DNA of 64,000 bases from Bacillota bacterium (GCA_040754315.1 JBFMCS010000027.1:1-64000), one strand, 5' to 3'; counted from the stretch's first letter, positions 46,282-54,412 are shown. Made by a program: numbers and translations. The notes: generated by a model not told the origin, from the sequence alone.

Positions 46282-46329
46282 TTGACAATAGACCTCAGAC
46301 TAGTATATTGTAAACATGTATGGGTTTAC
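46282..46329 (+). promoter_or_regulatory. Sigma-A promoter with palindromic operator at the head of the BREX remnant
   Basis: TTGACA (46282-46287), a 16-bp spacer and TATATT (46304-46309). Right after it lies GTAAAC-N8-GTTTAC (46310-46329), an inverted repeat that would cover the transcription start. A short GGTTAAACC palindrome also sits just before the -35. This suggests autorepression by the HTH protein or another regulator. Confidence 0.6.
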
Positions 46330-46425
46330 TTTGGTATAAGCGCCGAAAGCTGGAACGCGGATCTAGGAGCCAAGAGAAAGAGGCCGTATGAGGGAACCTA
46401 CGAAGTCAAACGTGAGTGGGGTCGA

Positions 46426-46632
46426 ATGATGGAAGACCGATGGCTTTCCGTAGATGAGATTGCCGGCCATCTCGGCGTCAGGCGGGATACGGTCTACAAG
46501 TGGATTAGTGAACGGCAGATGCCAGGCCACAAGATCGGTCGGCTTTGGAAGTTCAACAAGAAAGAAGTGGACGAGTGGGTGAGGTTTGGCGGAGCCAGCG
46601 ATAACGAGCTTGGTTCAAAAGGAGATCGCTAA
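46426..46632 (+). CDS. Excisionase-type helix-turn-helix protein
   Basis: A small MerR/excisionase-like DNA-binding protein (68 residues): WLSVDEIAGHLGVRRDTVYK then WISERQMPGHKIGRLWKFNK. This is the common HTH_17 pattern. In type 3 BREX and other defence loci such a gene is often first in the operon. Its stop overlaps the brxF start (TAATG). The frame is intact. The start could be ATG 46426 or 46429; the ribosome binding site is weak. Confidence 0.8.
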   Translation: MMEDRWLSVDEIAGHLGVRRDTVYKWISERQMPGHKIGRLWKFNKKEVDEWVRFGGASDNELGSKGDR

Positions 46633-47104
46633 TGGCGAAGCCGCTCGCCGATAGAGTGGTGCGAGGAATCGGACAGACTGGCGCTGTACCACCGTCTTGT
46701 TATGCTGGTGGCTCCGGCCGGTGCGGGCAAGATCGCCGCGCTCCAGGATGTTCACCAGCGCACGGCGGCTCCTCTGGTCAACGTCAGTCTTGAACTTTCC
46801 CGGCGCATGCTTGACCTCACCGAGCGCAAGCGGGCATTGCAGTTGCCCCGCCTCCTCGCAGAGATCGTGGGCTCATCCGCAGCCGATGTGGTTCTTCTGG
46901 ACAACGTCGAGGTCCTCTTCGATGTCTCGCTCAAGCAGGACCCACTGCGGCTTCTGCAGGCTCTCGCGGAACAAGACGGTGGTCACGGCTTGGAGCGGCT
47001 CCATAGACGGCGAGCACATGGTCTATGCGACGCCGGACCACCCCGAATACAAACGATATTCCTTACGAGATTTCCTGGTAGTGAACCCGGAGGCCGTTGC
47101 ATGA
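46632..47104 (+). pseudogene. brxF: BREX type 3 BrxF, frameshifted
   Basis: The pieces assemble to a BrxF protein: MAKPLADRVVRGIGQTGA in the first frame, then LVMLVAPAGAGKIAALQDVH through DVVLLDNVEVLFDVSLKQDP in the second, then LSRNKTVVTAWSGSIDGEHM to [11 protein letters not shown] in the third. Two frameshifts (about 46685 and 46965) are therefore needed. The P-loop reads GAGKI, with Ile where Thr or Ser binds magnesium. BrxF is a small P-loop protein specific to type 3 BREX. Clearly inactive. Confidence 0.8.
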
Positions 47105-47138
47105 AGACAAGGAACGAGAGCGCAGGAGGGCAGTCGCG

Positions 47139-47863
<725 letters not shown>

Positions 47864-47905: not shown

Positions 47906-50523
47906 ATGAATGAGAACACATCCTTTTTCGTTCACGGAAGTCGATGGGTGCGGGCTGATTTCCACCTGCATACTCGGCGGGACAGAGAATTTAAAGACAC
48001 AGGTTCCGAGAAGGATTTTGTGGCACGATACATTTCCGCGCTGAAGCAAGCGGACATCCGCGTTGGCGTTATCAGCAACCACAACAAGTTCGACCGGGAG
48101 GAGTTCAAAGCACTCCGAAAGGCGGCAGAACAGGAAGATATCTATCTAATGCCCGGAGTTGAGTTGTCGGTCAAGGATGGCCTTAATGGTATCCACACTC
48201 TCATAGTCTTTCATAAAGATTGGATCGATAATCCCGAAGACGCCGATCACATCAACGGATTTCTCGGACTTACCTTCGCCGGTCAGGCAAACTACGACAA
48301 CAACAATGCCCGATCTAACCATGACCTGCTGGAGACCCTTCGCGAACTGGACAAATTTGCGAAGGACTACCTGATCATCTTCGCCCATGTAGAGGATGAC
48401 AACGGTCTCTGGGGAGCATTTAAGGGTGGGCGAATCACTGAACTCGGCAAGAATGACCTGTTCCGTTCCCGCACAGCGGCTTTTCAAAAAGTGAGAACGT
48501 GGGACAAACGTGAGAAAGTCAAAGGGTGGCTTGGGGACTGGTATCCTTCGGAAGTGAAGGGATCAGACCCCAAAACATTGGACGAAATCGGGCGCGGCGA
48601 ACAGACCTTCATTAAGATGGCGCTTTCACCTTTGAGGCGGTCCAGTTTTCCCTAAAACCTGGAACAGATCGTTTGTCCGACAAGGTCATTACGAAGCAAA
48701 ATCACTCCTGGATACGCTCAGTTGCCTTCCAGGGAGGAGTATTGGATGGAAAGCGGTTTAACCTTTCTGATGAGATGAACTGCTTAATTGGTATTAGAGG
48801 AAGTGGAAAGTCCGCCGTTCTTGAATGCTTGCGCTTCGCACTTGAATTGCCGTTACCTGAATCCGCAGAAGAGTTGGACCTCAAGTACAAGCAGGATCTT
48901 GTCCGGTTCGCCCTCGGCAGCGGCGGAAAGGTCGTGGTCGAGGTGGAAGACGCACAAGGCCGGCGTTACGAAGTCCGCCGGATCCTGAACGAACGAGCGG
49001 ATATTTACTTTGATGGGAAGTTACGACCCGGCGTGCGCATGCCTTTGGAGAATCCGCTGTTTTTCGGCCAAAAGGAACTGGTGAAAAGAGGCGAAGGTTC
49101 AGAGCGTGAGTTGGTGGAACGCTTGCTGGGTTCCAAACTCGATGCCGTTCGCCGAGAGATTGATGCTCAACGCCGACGGGTGCTGGATGTGATGACGAAT
49201 TTCGATAAATTGAAAGGCCTCGATGCACAGGAGCAGGAATACCAGAGCAGGAGGAAAAATGCAGAGTTTCATCTTGGGCTTTTCAAACAGTATGGTGTCG
49301 AGCAGCAGCTTCAGCGTCAGGTGGAGTTCAATGCGGATGTGACGCATGCCAGTCATGTTGCCGATACCGTGGATGCATTTGTCCGGGCTTTCGATGTATT
49401 TCTGAAGGAGCAAGAATCCGAACTGGCCGCGCTGCCCAGGATTGAGTCCAAAGAAAACGCAGATGTCATCGCGGACATCAACGCTATCCTTGACCGGATA
49501 CGAAAGGCGCCTGGCAGTGCCCGGAAGGTTCTCGCCGAGACGCGCAACGATGCGCGCGCTTTGCGGGAAAAACTGGGGGAACTTGAGCGTCGCCGCGAGA
49601 CGCTCAAGGACGATTTCGCGTCACTTGAGCGGAAACTGAGCGAGCAACTCCAACAAGTCGGGGGCGTCAATATCCGGCCGGACGATTTTGTAAGACTCAA
49701 CACCGAATTGCAGAAAGCCAAACTGGTGCTCGAAGAAATAGCGAAGAGCCGTGCACGAAAGAACGCCCTTCGAGATGAGCTTTTGAAGGAGCTGAAGCAG
49801 CTTTCCGACCTGTGGCATCAGGAGTTCAAGCGAATCGAGATGGAAATCAAGAAACTCAACGAAAGCCAGACTGCGCTTCAAATTATTCCACAATATAAGG
49901 GCGACAAGGTTGCATTCCTGAAAGAATTGCAGAATCACCTCCGCGGCAGCAAGCTTCGAGAAGCAACCTTGAAGGGTGTGCTGGATTCACACGCAGATTT
50001 CATCTCGGTCTACGAAGCATTGGGTGCGATTTGCAGCAACCTCGGTGATTCGGGCGATGTATTTCGGAGGTATTTCGATGAAGCCAGGGCAGCTTTGCTT
50101 ACCTGGCAGGTGCCGAACACCTTCCTGATCAAATATCATGGAAAGGAACTACGCGATCACTCGCTGGGGCAGAGGGCATCAGCACTGATCCTCTTCATCC
50201 TGAGCCAGCGCGACAATGATGTAATCATTATCGACCAACCTGAAGATGACCTGGATAACCAGACCATCTTCGAGGACGTCATCAAACTGGTGCGGGCGCT
50301 TAAGAAGGGAATCCAGTTCATCTTCGCGACACACAACGCCAACTTCCCCGTACTGGGCGACGCAGAACAAGTAGGCGCTTGTTCCTTTGCCGGTCGAAGC
50401 GCCGGCATCCAGGTTGGGAGCATTGACGAGCCGGGAATACAAAAGGCCATCGTATCCATCATGGAAGGTGGACGTGAAGCCTTCACTAGGCGGAAGGAGA
50501 TTTACCAGCTATGGAAGCAATAG
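47906..50523 (+). CDS. PHP-domain plus coiled-coil ABC ATPase (TrlF-like), split by one frameshift
   Basis: The first part (47906-48655) has a PHP metallo-hydrolase domain: HLHTRRD, SNHNKFD, PGVELSV and FAHVEDD carry the metal-ligand His, Glu and Asp. The second part (open from 48628, numbered start TTG 48673) has Walker A GIRGSGKSAVLE, a ~300-residue coiled coil, an LGQRASALILFIL signature, Walker B VIIIDQPEDDLD and the THNAN switch His, as in SMC/RecF-type ATPases. One missing base near 48620 splits them. A restored reading gives about 870 residues, like TrlF-family defence ATPases. The ATG follows GGGAG. It lies inside a decayed BREX operon. Confidence 0.72.
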
Positions 50524-51674
50524 AACTTATCGAGTTGATCGCACGCGGCGAGGACAGCCGAACTCAGTTTAAGAAGGGGCAAGATGTCACCAATGCCCGA
50601 TCGCTGGCTGGTGAAATAGTAGCCTATGCAAACAGCAAGGGCGGAAGAATCTTGATCGGCATTGACGATGCCGGCTCAGTTAGCGGCTTGTCGGCTGACG
50701 ACATACGAAGGATAAATGAACTCATTTCAAATACAGCGACCGATTGTGTGCGTCCTTCCATCAACCCTGAAACCGAAAATATCTCTGTCGGTGGGAAAGT
50801 GGTCATGGTGGTCACTGTTCCTGAAGGCATCTCGAAACCATACGCCGATAATGATGGTGTGTTTTGGGTAAAGTCAGGAGCGGACAAGCGCCGGGTGACT
50901 TCCCGCGAAGAAGTCCAGCGAATGCTACAAGGCGCCGACCTGGTTCATGCGGATAAAGTGCCCGTCGATGGAACCACCTCGGGAGACATCGATCTGGAGC
51001 ACTTTGGCGCCCTTTTTTCGGAGCTATATGGTAAATGCTTTGACGAAACGGGAATCTCACTTGGTCAACTGCTAAACAATCTCGGTCTGGCACGCGACAC
51101 AAAGCTCAATCTTGCCGGACTTATGCTTTTCGGACGCAATCCTCAAAGGCACCGCCCTGCTTTCGTCATCAAGGCGGTATCCTTCGTCGGTAACGATCCC
51201 GCCGGTGAAAGATACCGGGACAGCCAAGACATCGGCGGGTGCTTGCGTGATCTGTACAAGGAAACAATCTCCTTCCTCACGCGCAATCTGCGGCGAGTGC
51301 AGAACGGAAAAGGCTTCAATACGGAAGGAGATCTGGAAGTGCCACCGGCTGCCTTGGAAGAGCTTGTCGTCAACATGCTGCTACACCGGGACTACTTCAT
51401 CTCCGCTCCATGGCGTGTATTCATGTTCGACAATCGGATAGAGCTAATCAGCCCGGGAGCTTTGCCGAACAATATCACCGTAGAGAATATCAAGAACGGT
51501 GTGTCGGTTATCCGCAATCCACTAATCGCTTCCTTTGCAACCAAAGCAGATGAGCTCCCTTACCGCGACATCGGCACGGGCATCCGACGGGCGTTGGCAG
51601 CCGTCCCCGAACTGGAGTTGGAATCGGATCATGAACGTAATCTTTTCATCGCACGTATTCCACGAAGAGAGTAG
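50511..51674 (+). CDS. AlbA_2 (Schlafen-type) and HATPase domain protein
   Basis: 387 residues, intact. The N-terminal AlbA_2 domain (about 1-130: EDSRTQFKKG, IVAYANSKGGRILIGID, KPYADNDGVFWVKSGADKRR) is a nucleic-acid-binding fold. The C-terminal part (from about 260: LEELVVNMLLHRDYF, IELISPGALPNNIT, YRDIGTGIRRAL) is the ATP-binding HATPase_c_4 type. Its ATG lies inside the last codons of the PHP-ATPase gene, a 13-base overlap, so the two proteins are made together and probably act together. Codon use is less GC-rich than that of the metabolic genes. Confidence 0.85.
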   Translation: MEAIELIELIARGEDSRTQFKKGQDVTNARSLAGEIVAYANSKGGRILIGIDDAGSVSGLSADDIRRINELISNTATDCVRPSINPETENISVGGKVVMVVTVPEGISKPYADNDGVFWVKSGADKRRVTSREEVQRMLQGADLVHADKVPVDGTTSGDIDLEHFGALFSELYGKCFDETGISLGQLLNNLGLARDTKLNLAGLMLFGRNPQRHRPAFVIKAVSFVGNDPAGERYRDSQDIGGCLRDLYKETISFLTRNLRRVQNGKGFNTEGDLEVPPAALEELVVNMLLHRDYFISAPWRVFMFDNRIELISPGALPNNITVENIKNGVSVIRNPLIASFATKADELPYRDIGTGIRRALAAVPELELESDHERNLFIARIPRRE

Positions 51675-51767: not shown

Positions 51768-51981
51768 CTGCTGGGCATTACGTTCCCGAATGAAGAGGAG
51801 CGGCATAAGCATTTCCTTGGCCTTCTGCGCGCAGGCTTGCAGGAACTGCGGGAAAAACTGTCCCTTCCCTTTACGAGTGTCGAGGATACCTTCAACCGCC
51901 TAAAATCCCTGCAGCATTGGCCGCTCGGTGCAGCCGAGGAAGTCCGCGAACTGGCCCAACGCATCGCTCACGCCTCATCCT

Positions 51982-52013
51982 CGACCCGTGATTCGGGACC
52001 CGCGACTCGCGAC
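51982..52013 (+). repeat. GACCCG-type repeat unit, copy 2, in pglX
   Basis: This is the second copy of the repeat at 51743, longer by one CTCGCGAC unit. It encodes STRDSGPATRD within otherwise conserved methyltransferase sequence, so it looks like an inserted low-complexity block. Confidence 0.55.
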
Positions 52014-52635
52014 ATCCTCAGCATTTATAAGGACGAGGTGGGCTTCCCGCACGGCAGTGACGAGGACATCCTGGCGCTCAGTGATCCGCCGTACTACACC
52101 GCCTGCCCGAAGCCTTGGGTGAGCGATTTCATGGCTCACTGGAGTAATGAGCAACAAGGACTGAGGACTGAGTCCGAGGAAAATACTCAGCCCACAGCAC
52201 TCGGCCAGTCCTACCATCGCGAGCCGTTTGCGGTGGACGTAAGCGAAGGGAAAACTGACCCCATCTATAAGGCACATTCGTACCATACGAAGGTTCCGCA
52301 TCTGGCGATTGTTCCGTCCATTCTCCACTACACGGAGCCGGGCGGCATCGTATTGGACGGGTTCTGCGGCTCGGGCATGACGGGCGTGGCCGCCCAGTGG
52401 TGCGGCACGGCGCCGGAACAGTATCGGCGGGAGGTGGAAAGCCGTTTCGAACAGCAAGGACATCTGAAACCCACTTGGGGCGCGCGCCGGGCGGTGCTCA
52501 ACGACCTGTCGCCCGAAGGCACCTTCATCGCCGCCAAACTATAACCTGCCCTTCGACGTCCGCGAGTTCTCCCGCGCGGGAAAACACATCCTCGATGTTG
52601 CTACGTTCATCTTGATTCTCACGGAAATCTGATCC

Positions 52636-52960
52636 AGGATTCTGTATGTTCAGGCAGTCTGAGCCGGGCCCGAAGAACACCCTGTGTCCCTCCACGGGCA
52701 TCACGCGCTGCCCGTCACGGTTTGCCAGGGTAACCCTCTTCGGGACGGTTGCCAGTGCCCATTCAATCAGGCCGGAGGGTATCCGCACCAGGTTTCCACC
52801 GGTAACGCCGGCGCCGCGCTGCCTCAGCATGTCCATGGCCTCCTGGAGGTAGAGGCGCACACCCGTCCTCCAGGATCTCCAGGGCTCCCCAGTGGAGCCT
52901 ATGGCACTGCCCGTCAGACAGGTACCGGAAGTGAGGCGTGCGGAAGGAATCCTCATTCAT
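52636..52960 (-). pseudogene. MttB-family N-terminal fragment cut by the defence island
   Basis: On the minus strand MNEDSFRTPHFRYLSDGQCH then LHWGALEILED starts like MttB. A frameshift near 52865 leads to LYLQEAMDMLRQRGAG, VRIPSGLIEWALATVPKRVT and VFFGPGSDCLNIQNP. Then similarity ends, and the same DNA read on the plus strand is the end of the pglX fragment. It lies seven bases after the stop of an intact mttB, so the two were tandem paralogues. Confidence 0.75.
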
Positions 52961-52966
52961 TAGGGG

Positions 52967-54412
52967 TTAAACACGGTTCTGCTTCCCTTCGAAGGTCTTC
53001 TCGTACGCATCGCCAATGGCGTCCAGTTCCCTCACCGTTTCTTCCCCAAGGCCTGCCCCCTCGCCCGAGAGGATGGTCCTCAGCCGCTTGCCGATCCTCG
53101 CTGAAAGGGTGGGACCCTCGCGTTCCGCCCAGACGCTGTAGGGTGTCCTGTCAAACAGGCTGGGTAGCCAGCACTCGTCGCGGAAGTGATCGAAGGTATG
53201 ATCGGTCTGGAGGAAGTGGCCGCCCGGCCCCACCTGTCTCATGGTCTCTATGGCCAGGGTCTCCTGGTTCACGGCGATGCCGCCGGTGAAACGCTTGACC
53301 ATGGAAATGATCTCGTTGTCCAGGACTAGCATGGGCAGGGAGCCCACCATGCCAGCGCTCATGTACCCGGAGTCATGGATCAGGTCCGAGCCGCAGAGGG
53401 CTGCCGAAATGATGGACAAGGTTGCCTCCGCCCCTGCCTGGCTGTCAAACCTGTTAGAATCAGTGCACCCGGCGGTGCCAAATACGGGGAGCCCGTAGTA
53501 CTTGCCCAGCTGCGCTGCGGCGAAATGCATCAGCGGGAGTTCAACGCCGCCGTAGATGGATATGCCTGACCGCATGTCCATGGATGAGGGTATTAGCCCG
53601 TAGATAAAGGGGGAGCCCGGCTGCTTCAGCTGGTGGAGCACGAGGCCTGTCAGGGTTTCCGCATTGGCCATGGCAAGACACCCCGCCATGGTTACCGGCG
53701 CCGTTCCGCCGGCTATAGCCCCTGAGGCGTAGGTTACGGGAATGCGATGCTCGGCGCAGAACAGGAGGCTCGAGAGGGACTCCTCGGAGTGCCTGAGGGG
53801 CGATGTAGGCTGGGTATAGATCACGTAGAACGGCCTGCTGGAGAGTTCCCTTGGGCTGCCCCGGACGGCAGCCCCCATCTCCCATATGGCCTTGGTTGAG
53901 GAGAGCGAGGTTGTGGTGGACACGAAGGGCTTGCGGCAACCACATATCATGGACTTGGCGCTGTAGACATCGGTGAGGAAGGGGTTGACATCCGACGGCA
54001 GCGCCAGTGACATGACGAAGTCGATGCCCTCAAGGGCCTCGCAGACCCGGGCGGAAATGGATACATCGCTGAGGGTGGCCCGGCGCACATGCCCGGTCTG
54101 GACATCCACGAAGTAGGGAAGGTCCGAACCCGGCCCAAAGTAGATGCGCCCGGCTCCCAGCTCCAGCGCCGCCGTTCCCTCCCTGTCAAAGATGGTGAAG
54201 CCTGAGGGGGCGGTGTAAAGGCTCTGTTCAACCAGTTCCCCAGGAATGAACACCCTGCTTCCCTTGACCGTGGCCCCGGCATCACCCAGCAGTGCGCGGG
54301 CCCTCTCGTCAAGGAGCTCCATGCCGGCCTCCCCCAGGATCTCCATGGAGGCGACATGGATGAGCTGCAATGAATTCTGGTCCAGCACAAGGGGCATTTC
54401 ATTGAACACCAC
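52967..54412 (-). CDS. Trimethylamine methyltransferase-family (MttB-like) protein, sigma-54 controlled
   Basis: 481 residues, full length, no amber codon, so a non-pyrrolysine MttB homologue. Landmarks: GAGRIYFGPGSDLPYFVD, QPTSPLRHSEESLSSLLF, YGLIPSSMDMRSGISIYGG, the acidic MLVLDNEIISMVKRF and HFLQTDHTFDHFRDECWLP. It would demethylate a methylated amine in the cytosol with a corrinoid partner, perhaps the one encoded at 43.3 kb. GTG start after AAAGGATG. A consensus sigma-54 promoter lies about 80 bp upstream and its likely activator is the next gene upstream. Confidence 0.9.
   Translation of the reverse strand: MVFNEMPLVLDQNSLQLIHVASMEILGEAGMELLDERARALLGDAGATVKGSRVFIPGELVEQSLYTAPSGFTIFDREGTAALELGAGRIYFGPGSDLPYFVDVQTGHVRRATLSDVSISARVCEALEGIDFVMSLALPSDVNPFLTDVYSAKSMICGCRKPFVSTTTSLSSTKAIWEMGAAVRGSPRELSSRPFYVIYTQPTSPLRHSEESLSSLLFCAEHRIPVTYASGAIAGGTAPVTMAGCLAMANAETLTGLVLHQLKQPGSPFIYGLIPSSMDMRSGISIYGGVELPLMHFAAAQLGKYYGLPVFGTAGCTDSNRFDSQAGAEATLSIISAALCGSDLIHDSGYMSAGMVGSLPMLVLDNEIISMVKRFTGGIAVNQETLAIETMRQVGPGGHFLQTDHTFDHFRDECWLPSLFDRTPYSVWAEREGPTLSARIGKRLRTILSGEGAGLGEETVRELDAIGDAYEKTFEGKQNRV

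Follow-up and report, generated by a model that had tools for sequence, protein, structure and literature searches.

The genes trlF and trlG form a fixed, strongly conserved two-gene unit, and its link to defence across genomes is well supported. The unit recurs within operons of at least six types of modification-based system, and its TrlG component is the growth-arresting part of a locus described in Photorhabdus. A guard function of the pair is likely, judged from gene neighbourhoods and published genetics. The copy from which this analysis started is itself a relic.

The trlF-trlG pair of the window lies in the ruins of a BREX-3 operon

The window is a stretch of 64,000 nucleotides from a Bacillota bacterium. 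The original prediction had described a PHP-ATPase gene and an AlbA_2 gene as a two-gene module but missed its setting, remnants of type 3 BREX on both sides (46426-47818 and 51771-52544). The features are as follows:

46426..46632, + strand: small HTH gene (excisionase/MAD1-like), probable regulator heading the BREX remnant (HTH_17 PF12728, E=9.5e-15; NF047737 MAD1, 80.8 bits, cut-off 80)
46684..47080, + strand: brxF remnant in two frames (PADLOC BrxF, E=1.3e-38; tblastn with BrxF of relative L032, residues 26-122 in frame 2 and 119-158 in frame 3)
47139..47818, + strand: brxC (DUF6079) remnant, residues 2-228 of 1243, in three frames (tblastn with L032 BrxC; Pfam PF19557); its right end is a deletion junction
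47906..48619, + strand: 5' part of trlF, PHP domain (NF045780 positions 1-254; 81% identity to residues 1-238 of L032 TrlF by tblastn)
48619..48620, + strand: trlF frameshift, 1 base fewer than in the four intact relatives L027, L029, L030 and L032 (DNA alignment)
48619..50523, + strand: 3' part of trlF, SMC/Rad50-type ATPase with coiled coil (NF045780 positions 255-944; fold of the L027 homologue)
50494..50499, + strand: putative ribosome-binding-like AAGGAG within trlF codons, 11 nt 5' of the trlG start (read from the sequence)
50511..51674, + strand: trlG, Schlafen/AlbA_2 plus HATPase_c_4, intact, 387 aa (Pfam, conservation, AlphaFold, Foldseek)
51771..52544, + strand: pglXI (BREX-3 adenine methyltransferase) remnant, N-terminal quarter only (PADLOC PglXI, E=9.4e-79; tblastn with L032 PglXI)

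For the HTH gene, an ATG was picked as start within a longer, TTG-started ORF (46282-46632).

The predicted PHP-ATPase belongs to the TrlF family (NF045780) and combines a PHP domain with an SMC-like ATPase, as proposed. Its gene, however, is split over two ORFs in different frames instead of forming one, 47906-48655 (249 aa) and 48673-50523 (616 aa), because one base was lost at ~48619/48620. A programmed frameshift was ruled out, as the four closest relatives compared read through this site in one frame. The C-terminal part alone scores 355.5 bits against the TrlF profile (cut-off 350) and the N-terminal part 142.1 bits. The Walker A motif is GIRGSGKS and the Walker B motif is IIIDQPEDDLDNQ. 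While trlF is frameshifted, trlG is whole; its product matches AlbA_2 (PF04326, E=1.8e-22) and HATPase_c_4 (PF13749, E=6e-13) and is 50-88% identical to the TrlG proteins of paired loci. PADLOC models returned only weak pAgo matches for TrlG. The trlG start (50511) precedes the end of the trlF frame (50523), confirming the predicted 13-base overlap. In the window, dN/dS was 0.09-0.12 for trlG and 0.10-0.27 for trlF, compared to 0.05-0.16 between intact relatives. The higher values of the window trlF against L027 are a hint of relaxed selection, though not a decisive one, most of the divergence being older than the loss.

The state of the flanking genes became apparent by comparison with L032, a Caldisericales MAG with an open operon of the order brxF-brxC-long AlbA_2 gene-111 aa ORF-trlF-trlG-pglXI. 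The window brxC matches this operon up to 47811 at 82%, and the match restarts at 47819, just 5' of trlF. The junction 47811/47819 thus joins L032 positions 1926 and 7313, so that ~5.4 kb are missing. Only residues ~43-230 of 941 are left of pglXI (tblastn with L032 PglXI), and brxF, brxC and pglXI are all fragmentary with broken frames. Across the whole genome, DUF6079 was confined to these window fragments, PF08665 (PglZ) had no match, and no HsdS was found. BREX-3 in the window is therefore dead, reduced to fragments, and trlFG is a dead or dying copy, the decayed passenger of this operon, with trlG alone still open. The frameshift in trlF together with the dead BREX rules out a working two-gene system in the source genome. 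Being broken, the window copy carries no information on function. At the right edge of the remnants, a truncated trimethylamine methyltransferase (MTTB) copy (52525-52956, - strand) abuts pglXI, and a full MTTB gene is present at 52967-54412.

trlF and trlG are paired across genomes

A scan with a TrlG profile, using one genome per species, recovered 353 relatives, of which the best 80 were analysed (more than 20 phyla). In 64 of the 80 loci trlF is located directly upstream of trlG on the same strand, in one of these (L040) as a C-terminal stub only. A full trlF was detected by tblastn in one further locus (L038), and for 15 of the 80 no complete trlF could be detected alongside trlG, a few of these loci being on short contigs. 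In nearly all of the 64 paired loci, from many phyla, the two genes overlap by exactly 13, 19 or 22 nt. Thus, the overlap in the window is not due to chance. The same gene order occurs in more distant relatives from the window's own class, and plasmid annotations list the neighbours as 'TrlF family AAA-like ATPase' and 'RNA-binding domain-containing protein'. Genome-neighbourhood co-occurrence of the two families in this order had been proposed as a check, and conserved pairing is what was found; chance neighbourship is ruled out by this recurrence and by the distance control described below. There was little support for a phage-borne module: IMG/VR contained 2 matches, and relatives in annotated phages were distant only (~24-28% identity among the matches listed).

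TrlF-family proteins also occur without TrlG, so dependence is not mutual. An E. coli IncF plasmid (L110:7293-9914), for example, encodes a full-length TrlF homologue (40% identical) beside a vapB antitoxin gene, with no TrlG. In two Hma operons (L037:9894-10010 and L040:9894-10010), trlF is reduced to its last 39-57 codons (tblastn) directly 5' of an intact trlG; this tail may be kept for trlG translation. In two rumen MAGs (L053 and L070) trlF is absent and the TrlG reading frame, of 532-647 aa, sits on a long branch; it may represent a different subfamily or a fusion.

trlFG is nested in modification-based defence operons

At least 33 of the 80 loci combine trlFG with same-strand genes of type I, type III or IIG restriction-modification (RM), BREX-1, BREX-3 or Hma systems; in 23 of them, such genes lie on both sides. 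As a within-locus control, we determined how these neighbours vary with distance. The share of RM/BREX/Hma markers among ORFs is 24% up to 1.5 kb from trlFG, 16% between 1.5 and 4 kb, 4% between 4 and 7 kb and 3% from 7 to 10.5 kb, and same-strand orientation drops from 79% to 46% with distance. About half of the 80 loci have no modification system within reach, a count made with a limited marker set and including contigs that end early. Many loci are stand-alone, such as those of Pseudomonas plasmids and Photorhabdus. Regarding the predicted two-gene defence module, the fixed unit and its defence link are thus upheld, but the window copy is a decayed passenger and not a free-standing working module.

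In several system types the pair is positioned between subunit genes of one system. On E. coli/Klebsiella IncA/C plasmids and E. coli chromosomes the order is HTH-hsdR-trlF-trlG-hsdS-ATPase-hsdM, and the outer junctions to hsdR and hsdS are 4-nt overlaps. Near-identical copies of trlFG are present in 38 of 5426 complete E. coli genomes, with hsdR and hsdS annotated alongside in all matches listed. In other loci trlFG separates type III mod from res or HmaA from HmaB, lies among the BREX-3 genes BrxC, PglXI and PglZ, is flanked by PglX and PglZ in BREX-1, or adjoins type IIG/MmeI enzymes. Well-supported branches of the TrlG tree require a minimum of 5 changes for BREX-3, 4 for type I and 3 each for type III, Hma and IIG, indicating that the module has been gained by, lost from or transferred between such operons on many occasions. 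Judged from this tree, the nesting arose repeatedly and independently.

Several loci carry further genes. In the E. coli JJ2434 chromosome (L112, near yhiM) and the IncC plasmid pNDM102337 (L025), the operon HTH-hsdR-trlF-trlG-hsdS-ATPase-hsdM directly follows Tn7-like transposition genes. This position on both a chromosome and a plasmid suggests that the operon is probably transposon cargo. In a Bacteroidetes MAG (L055:11221-12876), DarT-/DarG-like genes (recognised by eye from the sequence) adjoin trlFG in a type III RM operon, which thus holds two accessory modules. An Hma operon with trlFG also encodes a TIR-like protein (L045:11977-13407; by eye).

TrlG has a Schlafen-like fold with an altered catalytic triad

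AlphaFold models of good quality were obtained for TrlG (pLDDT 86.8) and for the intact TrlF of L027 (pLDDT 85.1). The TrlG model matches DIP2311 (3lmm) over its full length and human SLFN14, SLFN11 and SLFN12 in its N-terminal domain (Foldseek: SLFN14 9uie, E=9.4e-6; SLFN11 7zep, E=2.4e-5). The TrlF model matches the heads of MukB, Wadjet JetC, Smc and Rad50, preceded by the N-terminal PHP domain, in which H20, H22, H59, E86 and H161 (L027 numbering) are invariant.

The catalytic triad of rat SLFN13 is E205/E210/D248 (PMC5862951), with E206/E211/D249 as the SLFN14 counterpart. Upon alignment, the SLFN14 residues correspond to E14, Q19 and D53 of TrlG (D53 by counting along the alignment). Among 84 TrlG sequences, E14 is conserved in 83, Gln at position 19 in all 84 and Asp at position 53 in 68. 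Thus, the Schlafen fold is present but the Glu-Glu-Asp triad is not. An artefact of the search pattern was ruled out as the source of Q19, since 32 sequences do not match the Q-containing pattern and all have Gln. More distant TrlG-like partners of TrlF have Glu at this position. Cleavage by TrlG's own Schlafen site is doubtful, as one catalytic Glu is always Gln. TrlG is Schlafen-like in fold but should not be called a Schlafen RNase on the present basis. The predicted AlbA_2/GHKL partner is hence present and intact with both Pfam domains, but its description as a nucleic-acid binder undersells a Schlafen-like fold with a Glu-to-Gln change in the triad.

A second AlbA_2/HATPase protein shares the operon with trlFG in seven loci (L032:4989-6695, L037, L040, L041, L061, L095 and L099). 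That of L032 has a MarR-type wHTH. Where the motif could be matched (L037 and L099), this protein keeps Glu at the position of the TrlG Gln.

TrlG is the growth-arresting part in Photorhabdus

The pair itself is already known, and a single experimental study of it was found. In Photorhabdus laumondii, TrlR-TrlF-TrlG constitute the 'temperature restricting locus'; the trl operon is induced by an upshift to 36 C and growth stops, while its deletion restores growth (PMC7554251). The statement that the paired function was not established therefore needs amending: the names and the growth arrest are published, although that paper draws no link to phage, which it does not mention (PMC7554251). It does note relic type I M genes adjoining TRL on the Yersinia plasmid pYR3 (PMC7554251).

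Counting from the table and text of this study, 16 distinct lesions that allow escape from arrest map to trlG and none to trlF, and TrlF was not recovered among the escape mutants (PMC7554251). As trlF is 2.3 times longer than trlG, an equal requirement for both genes would give 16/16 in trlG with a probability of ~6e-9 (0.307 to the 16th power). Missense escape lesions affect 11 sites, which fall in both TrlG domains and are more conserved than random sites (0.91 vs 0.68, p=0.0005; p=0.004 when compared within the two domains). Escape lesions at conserved sites of trlG, and none in trlF, indicate that TrlG is the growth-arresting part.

Comparison with known systems

Photorhabdus TRL shares with the window the two families, their order and overlapping genes (22 nt in L103), TrlG being AlbA_2 plus HATPase_c_4. 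In contrast, the window has no trlR directly upstream, and its pair sits in a BREX-3 remnant with a frameshifted trlF.

Both PrrC and PARIS arrest the cell upon sensing that restriction is inhibited (PMC12707154). PrrC, of the type IC RM locus EcoprrI, resembles TrlFG as an accessory gene inside an RM operon that stops the cell, and the proposed restriction-guarding logic would be shared. However, PrrC is a single protein, an anticodon nuclease, and TrlFG occurs in many more system types; no sequence relation between the two was found. PARIS (AriA-AriB) likewise consists of two genes for an ABC-type ATPase and an effector, is often found beside BREX/RM and causes growth arrest. The ATPase part of TrlF matches AriA profiles weakly (E=3e-13). 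The effectors differ: AriB is a TOPRIM nuclease, whereas the effector gene here encodes AlbA_2/HATPase_c_4 (Schlafen plus GHKL), and TrlF adds a PHP domain.

Ppl, a single-gene PHP-ATPase anti-phage protein (NF042955), combines PHP with a related ATPase, and the C-terminal parts align (87 bits). However, the two parts of the window TrlF score 87.4 and 30.6 bits against an NF042955 cut-off of 1000, and Ppl by definition lacks a TrlG partner. A 2026 BREX survey files Schlafen-histidine-kinase-wHTH RNases, found in at least 1017 taxa, as backup effectors (PMC12839542). These also combine Schlafen/AlbA_2 with a minimal histidine-kinase-type ATPase beside BREX genes, but they have a wHTH, which TrlG lacks; TrlG, in turn, is paired with a PHP-ATPase and carries Gln in place of the second catalytic Glu. 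The survey does not mention PHP (PMC12839542). Both kinds are present in one operon in L032.

The literature on TrlF in a defence context yielded nothing besides PMC7554251, and no anti-phage assay of the TrlF-TrlG pair was found. What appears to be new are the pairing statistics, the recurrent nesting in modification-based systems of at least six types, the change in the Schlafen site and a connection between the Photorhabdus arrest locus and defence operons. A classification of ABC-ATPases (NAR, 2020) reportedly covers such conflict systems, and an earlier mention of a PHP-ABC/Schlafen pairing is possible.

Discussion

Taking together the location inside or beside RM/BREX operons and the Photorhabdus arrest, a guard or backup role like that of PrrC in EcoprrI or of PARIS is the most economical reading. 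We lean, by a little, towards the view that TrlF-TrlG is an accessory two-gene module of modification-based defence operons, with TrlG halting growth when the host system is challenged or disabled. TrlF and TrlG have the arrangement for overlapping translation and would be made together through it. TrlF, with its SMC/Rad50-type ATPase and PHP metal domain, may sense infection or an anti-restriction state and gate TrlG. TrlG, with its Schlafen-like and GHKL-type ATP-binding domains, would then arrest growth, a step supported by the Photorhabdus genetics (PMC7554251). RNA or the translation machinery is the probable target, and the chemistry may reside in the modified Schlafen site of TrlG or in the PHP domain. 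A bolder version appears rather unlikely to us, namely that TrlFG is a universal guard cassette, one mobile two-gene unit monitoring type I, III, IIG, BREX-1, BREX-3 and Hma systems, in which the Schlafen domain has lost its own nuclease site and serves as sensor or RNA grip, while catalysis falls to the PHP domain of the SMC-like partner.

The escape lesions, being confined to trlG, are also what would be expected if TrlF were dispensable for arrest (PMC7554251), as in a toxin-antitoxin-like stabiliser in which TrlF holds TrlG in check and the cell becomes addicted to whichever RM/BREX operon or plasmid bears the pair. The presence of the pair on plasmids and Tn7-like elements would fit this model. 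However, an obligate antitoxin would forbid the ~15 loci with trlG but no complete trlF, as well as the window, where trlG is open next to a frameshifted trlF, and growth of Photorhabdus is arrested by the full operon nonetheless. We regard this model as unlikely. It is somewhat less probable still that TrlFG controls growth independently, as an operon responding to stress or temperature, and that it came to lie in RM/BREX operons by hitchhiking in defence islands. The published phenotype is indeed a temperature-dependent growth arrest (PMC7554251), and stand-alone loci are numerous. Yet hitchhiking cannot account for a same-strand position between the subunit genes of one system, 4-nt overlaps and at least six system types, and the relic M genes on pYR3 (PMC7554251) also speak against independent growth control.

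The least probable of the alternatives is a direct nuclease or restriction accessory that causes no host arrest, in which TrlF loads onto DNA in the manner of Rad50/JetC and invading DNA or its transcripts are cut by the PHP or Schlafen domain. The SMC/Rad50/JetC-type fold of TrlF, its conserved PHP residues and the nesting between restriction and modification subunits are consistent with such a role. Against it, the sole genetic data describe arrest of the host itself (PMC7554251), host enzymes so varied make a shared structural complex less likely, and none of the 84 TrlG sequences has an unaltered Schlafen triad.

The guard idea is directly testable, E. coli chromosomes and IncC plasmids providing a near-identical RM-trlFG operon. 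Given its Glu-to-Gln change, TrlG would be a warning that bacterial Schlafen proteins should not all be annotated as RNases. PrrC and PARIS are each a safeguard against restriction failure in a few settings. If the guard function holds, one conserved pair in at least six kinds of modification-based operons would represent a generic second line of defence that is swapped between systems, and the unexplained Photorhabdus growth-arrest locus would gain a phage-related meaning.
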